A DNA stretch of 64,000 nucleotides, taken from NCBI RefSeq assembly GCF_003992065.1, contig NZ_RQUZ01000013.1:1-64000 (forward strand), written 5' to 3'. Made by a program: the position numbers and the translations under genes. This DNA comes from Veillonella seminalis (lineage in GTDB: Bacteria; Bacillota; Negativicutes; Veillonellales; Veillonellaceae). The notes below the pieces were generated by a model. That model searched no databases. It was not told the origin of the DNA and worked only from the letters and a program-made list of their open reading frames with translations. Positions 26,985 through 31,085 of the stretch are shown here, one piece after another. Position 1 is the stretch's first letter. Each line of letters begins with the position of its first letter.

Positions 26985-26996
26985 TATTTACTGATA

Positions 26997-27082
26997 TGGT
27001 GCGGTTGATGGGACTTGAACCCATACGAGCGTACGCTCACCACCCCCTCAAGATGGCGTGTCTGCCATTCCACCACAACCGC
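26997..27082 (-). tRNA. tRNA-Leu (GAG)
   Basis: An 86-base class II tRNA with anticodon loop TTGAGGG, acceptor GCGGTTG/CAACCGC and encoded CCA. Last gene in the three-tRNA operon. Confidence 0.95.
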
Positions 27083-27099
27083 ATGGAATTGTTATTAAA

Positions 27100-27175
27100 T
27101 GGTGCCTCAGGACAGAATCGAACTGTCGACACAAGGATTTTCAGTCCTTTGCTCTACCGACTGAGCTACCGAGGC
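27100..27175 (-). tRNA. tRNA-Phe (GAA)
   Basis: Cloverleaf with anticodon loop CTGAAAA and encoded CCA; acceptor GCCTCGG/CTGAGGC. Confidence 0.95.
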
Positions 27176-27202
27176 AAATTATTTTTTTCGAGGCAAAAAA
27201 AA

Positions 27203-27278
27203 TGGCGACCCCGATCAGATTTGAACTGACGATCTTCGCCGTGACAGGGCGACATGTTAACCGCTACACCACGGGGCC
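27203..27278 (-). tRNA. tRNA-Asp (GTC)
   Basis: Cloverleaf with anticodon loop CTGTCAC, G73 discriminator as usual for tRNA-Asp, and encoded CCA. Confidence 0.95.
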
Positions 27279-27306
27279 GCAATACCGTTGTTTCAGGTAC
27301 TCAATC

Positions 27307-27335
27307 ATAATATCATGATTTTATTTTCTGCGCAA
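27307..27335 (-). promoter_or_regulatory. Promoter of the Asp-Phe-Leu tRNA operon
   Basis: On the minus strand: TTGCGC (complement of 27330-27335), 17-base spacer, TATTAT (complement of 27307-27312), followed by tRNA-Asp. Confidence 0.7.
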
Positions 27336-27523
27336 GAGGTAAAATGAATTTTTTTTACATTTTTTTGTGAGGAATATTAAAATTTGGAGATATTTTAAGT
27401 GCCAAGGTGTTAACAAGGCACACATATCTCATACTGTAATAAAATTTTTAAACTTCTCAAACTTCTCTATTAATAGAGACCAAGACTTTATTTAGACTCT
27501 ATTTATAACATAAAAAGGTTAGA

Positions 27524-27806
27524 CACTAAAAGATTTATATGTTTCTCAAACAGAGTAGCGTAAAACTAGTGTGGTTAGAAGTAGATACTTTTACATCTAT
27601 CAATCAAACAACCTTCTTTTTCAACAACTAGACTTTTTATCTGATTTATACACTACTAAATCTACATGTTTCTCAAACCATTATGACTATCCTGTCTCAA
27701 TTGCTTAAGCTTTAGGCATTGCTAGATCTGCATATTTCCCGCAGAGATACGATTGCTAAATCAAATAGAATTACTCTAGACGCTACTAGATTTACATGTA
27801 TCAAGT
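27524..27806 (+). repeat. Degenerate dispersed repeat in a gene-free stretch
   Basis: The block ACTA(A/C)(T)AAATCTACATGTTTCTCAAAC appears at about 27525 and 27652 and, more degraded, near 27720 and 27783 (CTACTAGATTTACATGTATC). The stretch 27360-28090 otherwise holds no convincing gene; the longest plus-strand frames here are 30-37 codons without ribosome binding sites. Confidence 0.5.
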
Positions 27807-27870
27807 TCAAATAAAGATTTATCTACAATGCCCTTGGGCGGCTCGGTGTGGGCCATCTTATTCGAACTTT

Positions 27871-29007: not shown

Positions 29008-29943
29008 TTATTGACCGGTGTAGGTATTAAATAACATTTCCATGTTCACTAAACCATGTGGTACCGGGCTTACCAAGTACAAGCTGACTACGGCCAAAAT
29101 GGTAACGGCAATCGCTGCATAGGAGAAAGATCCGCGAGCACTGAATTCATACATACCGAACAAGCGCATACCGATAGCGGCCCCAACTGCTGCCACCAAA
29201 GCTTCCATAGAGAACAGGAAATCAGACGCGAAGAGTGCCAATACACCAACGAAAGCGGCTACGAAGTAAATCACCGGAATCATCACGTCCTGCTTGCTGG
29301 TAAACGAACGGCGTAAAGCTTTGGAATACAATGAAATATCCAAACCAAACAAGCCTAAGAACAATAATAAGAAATTCCAAATAGCATTCCAAGTGCCGCA
29401 GAAAGCATCACGATGCACACTTGCATACCAGGCAAAACCGGTTAAACCTAAAATGGCGAGCCCTACTAAGATGAAGTAGAAATTGGCCGGTAAGAATCGA
29501 ACCGCAAAAACGCCAACCAAGCACCAAACAGCAGCAGTTACTACACTGAGAACAACACCGCCGAGTGCCGGTTTTTGATCGGCCGGCAAGCGATTGTACA
29601 TGCTCATGGCTAATTCAGCAATAAAGCAGAAAATAAAGAAGGCAATAGCTGCCGGCGGCATTACAAACGCCAACGCAAACGAAATAAGTAATGGAATAAC
29701 TACACGCCAGCCTTTAAATAAAACTAAGTCCTTTATATTTAAACGAAAATCCTGTGTTTCCGAAGTAAATCCGTTGTACACGGCAAAGGTCAGCATAAAT
29801 GATACCAATTCTGTCGGTGTGGCGCCCCAATATAATAAGGTCGGTACTACGATAAACGATAAGGCTACACCGGTAAAGCGGGAAATAACCGCCGCAATAA
29901 AACCTGCGCCTAAATAAGGCAATAATGCAAGAACAATCTCCAT
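29008..29943 (-). CDS. TSUP (TauE/SafE) family permease, second copy
   Basis: A 311-residue membrane protein with two TauE/SafE-type halves and about eight to nine hydrophobic segments. It opens YLGAGFIAAVISRFTGVALSFIVVP, replacing the G-rich motif of the copy at 15.2 kb, so the two are distant paralogues. The substrate is probably a sulfur-containing or organic anion, but nothing nearby names it. The ATG at 29943 with GGAG 6 bases upstream is preferred over the ATG at 29955. Monocistronic. Confidence 0.75.
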   Translation of the reverse strand: MEIVLALLPYLGAGFIAAVISRFTGVALSFIVVPTLLYWGATPTELVSFMLTFAVYNGFTSETQDFRLNIKDLVLFKGWRVVIPLLISFALAFVMPPAAIAFFIFCFIAELAMSMYNRLPADQKPALGGVVLSVVTAAVWCLVGVFAVRFLPANFYFILVGLAILGLTGFAWYASVHRDAFCGTWNAIWNFLLLFLGLFGLDISLYSKALRRSFTSKQDVMIPVIYFVAAFVGVLALFASDFLFSMEALVAAVGAAIGMRLFGMYEFSARGSFSYAAIAVTILAVVSLYLVSPVPHGLVNMEMLFNTYTGQ

Positions 29944-30111
29944 GATTAACTCCATTTCTTTAAGCTTAATTTTTTTAAAAACCTTACTTCCATACTCTTT
30001 AGTATAACGAATTAAGCCCCATCAATGCAATACTTTCGCCTATCAATCAAGGATAATATTCTCTCAAAAATTTAATAAAGTGCCCTTTTATTTTCTCTTA
30101 TTATCTGCTAC

Positions 30112-30855
30112 TCAAGACCGCTTCTTATACCCCTGCCACGAGTCCAGGCGACGCCGTACCGCCGAATAGGAACACCCCAAATCGGCGGCAATCTGCATTG
30201 GACTCAGTCCCTGTTGATACCGTACACATACGTCAAACATATTAAGTTCCAAATGATTCCCCCTCAAGCGAACGCCTTCTTCTTTTAACCGTTCAGCCAC
30301 GGTAGCCGGCTTAACGTCATACAAAGCCGCTAACTCCGTCGTAGACATATGACGCTGTTCATACAAATAAGCCAATTCTTTAACATTCAAATACACTCGT
30401 TTATTGCTATGCCGGATGAATATGCCCTTATCTCGCAAAGTTTTCAGCACCGTCCAACGTGACATATGTAAATGTTGAGCCACCCAGCCGGCACTTTGAC
30501 CGCTGTTATATAAAGTTACAATACGTTGCTGTGTCAATGCTGACGGTTCTTTATAATCAGCTTTTTTACTTACCAATACCCCCATCTCATGAAGCCGCGC
30601 CGCTACCGTCGTGTGTGAACACTTATAACGAACGGCCAATTGCTTTACCCCAAGACCGGCTTCTAAATATAAATGAGCCAATTCATCTTCAGGCAGTTTT
30701 TTGCGCCGTGACCGTACCGGAATCTGATAGGCATGCAAACGACGCACTACCGTATCCTGACTGCACCCCAATTTTTTGGCAATCTCCCATGTAGATAACT
30801 TCTCTTCCGTGTACAAACGGTTCAATAACTTCATCGGAATTACGACTTTTGACAT
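30112..30855 (-). CDS. Protein of five tandem helix-turn-helix units
   Basis: A 247-residue basic protein made almost wholly of five related HTH units at about residues 9-47, 57-95, 108-148, 158-198 and 206-241 (period about 49). Each has a helix (LNRLYTEEKLS), the turn (WEIAKKLGCSQDTVVRRL) and a short tail ending in V-R. They resemble resolvase/Hin or sigma-like HTH motifs, with alternating Cys-Ser in the turn (GCSQ, KCSH, GCSY). No catalytic or sensor domain is present. GGGGAGCTGGATAGT precedes the ATG. It is divergent from the site-2 protease gene across a palindrome-rich gap. It may be a regulator that reads a long or repeated operator. Confidence 0.75.
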   Translation of the reverse strand: MSKVVIPMKLLNRLYTEEKLSTWEIAKKLGCSQDTVVRRLHAYQIPVRSRRKKLPEDELAHLYLEAGLGVKQLAVRYKCSHTTVAARLHEMGVLVSKKADYKEPSALTQQRIVTLYNSGQSAGWVAQHLHMSRWTVLKTLRDKGIFIRHSNKRVYLNVKELAYLYEQRHMSTTELAALYDVKPATVAERLKEEGVRLRGNHLELNMFDVCVRYQQGLSPMQIAADLGCSYSAVRRRLDSWQGYKKRS

Positions 30856-31015
30856 ACTATCCAGCTCCCCTAATTTTAACTGACACAGTCCCCGTAATAT
30901 TGATCAAATTCCCCCATAGTGCTGCATTTCATACAAACGCATAAGCTCACACTCTTCATAGTTTTCCCTGTTACTGCCCCTATTATAAAAAGAGTACCGC
31001 TGAGGGGCAAGCAAA

Positions 31016-31085
31016 TGACTCATACCATTGGTGCGCATACGCACTGTCGGTACGTCGCTCATACCAACAGTATGACTCAGTACTC
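31016..31085. promoter_or_regulatory. Cluster of short palindromes and direct repeats
   Basis: Within 70 bases lie GTGCG-CATA-CGCAC, CATAC-CAACA-GTATG, two copies of CTCATACCA and two of ATGACTCA. The cluster sits between the five-HTH gene and the protease promoter (TTGCCT 31114, 17 bases, TATACT 31137). Multiple operators are plausible. Confidence 0.5.

Follow-up and report, generated by a model that had tools for sequence, protein, structure and literature searches.

Tandem arrays of helix-turn-helix (HTH) units that read a long DNA site along a single chain are a known kind of protein, so far characterized mainly in archaea and as parts of mobile-element proteins. The archaeal proteins Cbp1 and Cbp2 (NF040595; PDB 2lvs), like the protein described here, are small and consist purely of tandem HTH units that arose by domain duplication; the three HTHs of Cbp1 lie 5′ to 3′ along one CRISPR repeat (PMC10883916). 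HNH and GIY-YIG endonucleases of phages and archaeal viruses (phrog_8446; BcepSauron_070; HJTV-4 gp23) carry units of the same type as those described below, head-to-tail and in four copies, and the C-terminus of Tn7-like TnsD (PF15978) uses several HTHs per chain for target-site choice (PMC10293859). Paired-type domains (Pax, Tc3, Mos1) combine tri-helical HTHs with an extended linker, but comprise two units only and sit within larger proteins.

The window analyzed here (the whole stretch of 64,000 nucleotides, from Veillonella seminalis) encodes a protein, referred to below as the poly-HTH protein, whose nearest matches are all DNA readers: the CRISPR-repeat binder 2lvs, TyrR, resolvase, Mos1/Tc3 and Pax paired domains. 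Cbp1 was its best NCBIfam match (56.3 bits vs. a cut-off of 140), and 2lvs its best PDB sequence match (E 9e-6). Whereas Cbp1 and Cbp2 are archaeal, have three and two HTHs, respectively, and bind CRISPR repeats, the poly-HTH family is bacterial, has four to six units, and has its candidate sites in promoter regions. A role as a Cbp1-like CRISPR-repeat binder was rejected because the score falls far below the cut-off and Cas1 (PF01867) is absent from the window's genome, control genomes being positive. The Pfam match to TnsD (29.3 bits vs. a cut-off of 32.4) covered one HTH stretch only, and unlike TnsD the poly-HTH protein lacks a TniQ/zinc-finger core and has no transposon genes among its neighbors. 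A Foldseek search against the PDB gave no significant whole-chain match; paired-type domains appeared among both the Foldseek and the profile matches, the former with E-values that are not significant. Phage D5-like transcription regulators (phrog_323) matched several HTHs over 155 residues (6e-10); these are phage proteins. No viral relatives were confirmed by sequence pattern, and membership of a defense system was rejected given that PADLOC returned generic HTH matches only. Overall, no library model covers the family above its family-specific cut-off, and no characterized multi-HTH family matched above cut-off either. To that extent the design remains one that the sequence-only reading was right not to recognize, but its kind is familiar from Cbp1, TnsD C-termini and phage endonuclease arrays.

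Architecture of the HTH units

The gene and its units are as follows.

30112–30855, minus strand: gene of the poly-HTH protein (247 aa, pI 9.9), with five tri-helical HTH units in tandem
30712–30840, minus strand: HTH unit 1, residues 6–48, recognition helix starting at residue 33
30574–30696, minus strand: HTH unit 2, residues 54–94
30412–30534, minus strand: HTH unit 3, residues 108–148
30262–30390, minus strand: HTH unit 4, residues 156–198
30118–30246, minus strand: HTH unit 5, residues 204–246

The gene is real: the 247-residue frame claimed at 30112–30855 is present, starts with ATG with AGGGGAG ahead of it, and is under strong purifying selection (dN/dS ∼0.05 against the nearest available orthologue, 84% protein identity). 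Its product has a computed net charge of about +18. Pfam placed HTH families throughout the chain, with HTH_23 the best (6e-21, four stretches) and HTH_7, HTH_38 and others also matching, and a profile of the unit, made from family sequences, found five units at 47–62 bits each. With the window's genus left out of its training, the profile still recovered five units at 25–52 bits, whereas 2000 shuffles gave no more than 5.4 bits. An AlphaFold2 model computed from a two-sequence alignment (the window protein and one orthologue) contained 15 helices, which form five sets of three with other domains absent; its mean pLDDT of 74.7 and pTM of 0.40 give fair to moderate confidence in single units and low confidence in their arrangement relative to one another. 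HTHs and linkers account for all residues, and no nuclease family was among the 25 Pfam matches listed. The earlier claims of five HTH units and of no other domain were thus both borne out.

Recognition helices start at residues 33, 81, 133, 183, and 230, i.e., at spacings of 48, 52, 50, and 47 residues, so the proposed 49-residue period holds as an average (mean 49.25) and not as a fixed spacing. Units 1, 2, and 5 of the window protein have a Cys-Ser pair just before the recognition helix (C31-S32, C79-S80, and C228-S229), as had been noticed. Of these pairs, C31-S32 alone is invariant in the family, the pair in unit 2 becoming V-S in most other genera and that in unit 5 being variable; the pair stands where an HTH turn ordinarily has a hydrophobic residue and an N-cap, and is no special motif. 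Helix 3, the recognition helix, is the most conserved helix of each unit in the family comparison. Between orthologues, units in equivalent positions are 37–52% identical, vs. 19–30% for units at different positions, which indicates an old array whose units have separate roles and are differentiated, as expected for a protein that reads a fixed composite site. The earlier view of the chain as a DNA reader is likewise supported, and the poly-HTH protein is predicted to bind DNA.

Candidate operator and proposed regulation

Two elements lie upstream of the poly-HTH gene.

30982–31010, minus strand: poly-HTH gene promoter of sigma-70-like type (TTGCCC-17-TATAAT), kept across six species of the genus
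31016–31072, minus strand: candidate operator, adjoining the −35 box on its upstream side, with two clear CACYANTGGTRTGA copies 39 bp apart

A degenerate copy lies between the two clear ones, and the 3′ part of the candidate operator is kept in all six species, in whose upstream alignment the conserved block ends in TGGTRTGAGT, followed by the −35 TTG, 17 bp, and TATAAT. Motif copies fit CACYANTGGTRTGA and are spaced by 19–20 bp or, in one clade, by 33/39 bp, as in the gene's own promoter and those of genomes G004 and G005. Rfam gave no known RNA element. Searching the whole genome of the window with the degenerate motif gave five exact matches at three loci only, all intergenic: the poly-HTH promoter, the region between comEA and an M29 peptidase gene (comEA/M29), and topB/prfC, where three copies recur at 19-bp spacing. 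A PWM scan of 1.92 Mb agreed with this result, and the pattern search covers contigs C8–C11 and C21–C22 in full. With three intergenic loci only, a high-copy intergenic repeat or uptake sequence was rejected for the window's genome. The intergenic matches in G004 and G005 were again the own poly-HTH promoter and comEA/M29, and the remaining matches across the genus were almost all within ORFs. The poly-HTH untranslated leaders of G006 and G001 contain short tandem repeats with 15-bp/19-bp periods (L033:7001-7158, L035:7446-7506) that are absent in the window.

One 18-mer of the promoter block, GCACCAATGGTATGAGTC, has a single further exact copy in the genome, in the comEA/M29 intergenic region. 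Exact 18-mers are, however, shared by 274 pairs of intergenic places in this genome, so such sharing was rejected as proof in itself and the argument for an operator rests on conservation across species. The comEA/M29 site is kept in related species and varies together with the promoter copy: in G006 and G002 the poly-HTH promoter has another form, CACTAYNGGTATGA-N6-CTCTANTGGTATGAGTGA, and so does the comEA/M29 region. Local alignment of the two regions outscored each of 300 dinucleotide shuffles in four of the seven species; in G002 they align over the same stretch, not significantly by shuffle score, and the pairwise test was likewise not significant in G001, G003, and the other genera. From the autoregulatory position and this co-variation, we infer that the poly-HTH protein binds the CACYANTGGTRTGA motif.

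The interpretation we favor, and to which we give roughly an even chance of being correct, is that of an autoregulated, sequence-specific regulator whose head-to-tail HTH units occupy a long composite site, probably the CACYANTGGTRTGA array, and which co-regulates comEA/M29 and, here, topB/prfC. The units would align head-to-tail on one DNA site, each recognition helix entering the major groove, while the basic linkers, of the GI-x-(L/V)-R-G-N type, would probably follow the minor groove. The likely site consists of CACYANTGGTRTGA elements, mostly 19–20 bp apart, just upstream of the gene's own −35 box and at comEA/M29, and in this strain also at topB/prfC. If reading were linear as in Cbp1, at ∼7–8 bp per unit, five units would span ∼38–40 bp, i.e., two elements of 19–20 bp. 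The conserved candidate site has this length, and the five half-turns (∼26 bp) suggested by the sequence-only reading are probably too short. The protein would thereby regulate its own gene and co-regulate the genes at comEA/M29 and topB/prfC. A site abutting the −35 box suits activation, and autorepression would also be possible. G006 has the element in its M29 leader, where it stops just short of the start codon, so the effect there may differ, or comEA may be the target. Natural competence is known in Veillonella parvula (PMC5397411), so the link to comEA can be tested.

Several motif copies are partly palindromic, e.g., TCACACCATTGGTATGA. Such symmetry is more in keeping with a dimeric regulator than with a monomer lying head-to-tail, and another factor could thus own the motif. 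That dimeric regulator would control poly-HTH, comEA/M29, and topB/prfC, the poly-HTH protein having a target of its own; we consider this somewhat unlikely. The palindromic form found in Veillonella (below) agrees with it, but direct repetition at 19–20 bp and the several copies without a dyad suit a tandem reader, and with so few sites autoregulation offers the simplest connection.

Genomes of Veillonella proper carry the core CTAWTRGTCAC in dispersed, terminator-like palindromes at ∼6–9 intergenic loci each, which include, not exclusively, the poly-HTH and comEA/M29 regions; this number is too low for an uptake sequence, which was rejected. Palindromes in the Veillonella-type genomes G062, G137, and G180 (L176-L205) share a conserved core, CTAWTRGTCACC-TA-GGTGACYAWTAG, within variable outer stems (AGAGGTTC, AATGACT, AACTCCTGC), and some stand at orthologous places, by galE, comEA/M29, poly-HTH, and a YraN-like gene. 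The core could be the same site placed inside hairpins, or a separate repeat.

These dispersed palindromes and the 19-bp tandem arrays at topB/prfC would also fit a nucleoid-type or architectural protein, one that uses its five basic units to cover or bridge DNA of almost any sequence and perhaps nucleates at repeats in the manner of Cbp1. The poly-HTH protein is a basic, all-HTH product of a core gene of the family, and Cbp1 offers a chromatin-like precedent (PMC10883916). We nevertheless regard this as unlikely: the units are individually conserved and mutually different, with the recognition helices the most conserved parts, which argues for specificity, and the window's genus has few motif-like sites.

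Family distribution and gene neighborhood

The survey of copy number in relatives that had been proposed found the poly-HTH gene as a single copy in the window's genome and in 29 of 29 sampled Veillonellaceae genomes, from four genera. It was not found in the sampled sister families at E ≤ 0.001, two weak matches elsewhere in the class being other HTH proteins. Most orthologues have five units; those of genus g3 and of G174 have six, and that of G141 has four. The genes upstream vary by genus, with an M50 peptidase gene, divergent, in g1, g3, and g4 and NfeD-FloA-orf in most of g2. Downstream, the neighborhood is constant.

29008–29955, minus strand: divergent TauE/TSUP-like permease gene, directly downstream of the poly-HTH gene
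30001–30030, minus strand: permease promoter-like element, TTGCAT-18-TATACT, in the poly-HTH/permease gap, genus-conserved (coordinates set by eye)

The permease, which matches Pfam TauE below cut-off only, adjoins the 3′ end of the poly-HTH gene on the same strand in all 29 family genomes (with two ORFs between in one), though the other flanking genes differ. This constancy might suggest a regulator–transporter pair, in which the poly-HTH protein is a local regulator of the permease alone. The permease, however, was found in 61 of 62 sampled genomes of the order, including three families without the poly-HTH gene; in family f2 it sits after pyrF/pyrE-like genes (named from sequence). It is therefore the older gene, and the poly-HTH gene appears to have joined an existing permease locus in the ancestor of the family, a single insertion that may explain the adjacency. 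In the window's genus, moreover, the permease is preceded by a conserved promoter of its own that holds no copy of the CACYANTGGTRTGA motif, so the two genes may not form a simple operon. We thus consider control of the permease alone improbable.

In three genomes a homologue of LarA (lactate racemase) lies beside or near the poly-HTH/permease pair (L038:4343-5611, L047:1027-2292, and a LarA-cluster gene in L036). Lactate is the main food of Veillonella, and a carboxylate might thus be the substrate of the permease. Elsewhere in the window, a minus-strand cluster of tRNA genes (Leu, Phe, Asp; 26997–27278) is followed downstream by three non-coding 33-nt direct repeats spaced by ∼128 nt (27519–27808); plus-strand ORFs of 77 and 86 aa (26996–27318) opposite the three tRNA genes are almost certainly not genes.

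Origin and meaning of the array

The best PHROG match of the poly-HTH protein was the HNH endonuclease family phrog_8446 (6e-24). Endonuclease arrays of this kind also gave its best viral fold match, and the unit profile found four units beside GIY-YIG in phage BcepSauron and four beside HNH in the haloarchaeal virus HJTV-4. Those endonucleases bear nucleases and are mobile, whereas the poly-HTH protein is nuclease-free and inherited at one locus. Two further proteins carry such units: a second gene in the relative G165 (L048, G165:C1:22469-22756) encodes two poly-HTH-type units and then, by eye, an HNH-like domain, and is a related putative endonuclease within the same bacterial family; and a 466-aa open frame in G669 (L056) has two poly-HTH-type units, repeated cysteine-rich segments, and an endonuclease-like C-terminus. 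Going one step further from these comparisons, we infer that the poly-HTH array probably derives from the DNA-reading part of a free-standing endonuclease of the HNH/GIY-YIG type whose nuclease was lost. That it still is only a relict, or solo, DNA-reading array left from a homing endonuclease, devoid of a regulatory role or competing with such elements for their sites, would agree with the viral arrays, the HNH endonuclease family as best PHROG, and the two-HTH protein with its HNH-like tail, but is very improbable given a single copy at one locus in 29 of 29 genomes, strong purifying selection, and its own conserved promoter, which argue for a host function.

The sequence-only reading as a whole is thus partly supported, and our preferred interpretation remains an autoregulated, sequence-specific regulator. 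In a broader form, which we hold to be rather unlikely in full, the protein would be a family-wide regulator derived from a mobile endonuclease and placed over the DNA-uptake gene comEA, reading a ∼40-bp non-coding site with five (four to six) differentiated head-to-tail units whose number tracks the length of the site from genus to genus.

As far as the libraries and literature searched show, a core, nuclease-free bacterial family of four to six HTH units with a candidate operator is a new form of this known kind of protein. Its natural four-, five-, and six-unit orthologues, together with the candidate operator, would permit studying the way in which HTH modules are combined on DNA, and whether adding or dropping units lengthens or shortens the recognized site. 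The family would also provide a candidate regulator near the DNA-uptake genes of Veillonella, an oral genus that is abundant and naturally competent.
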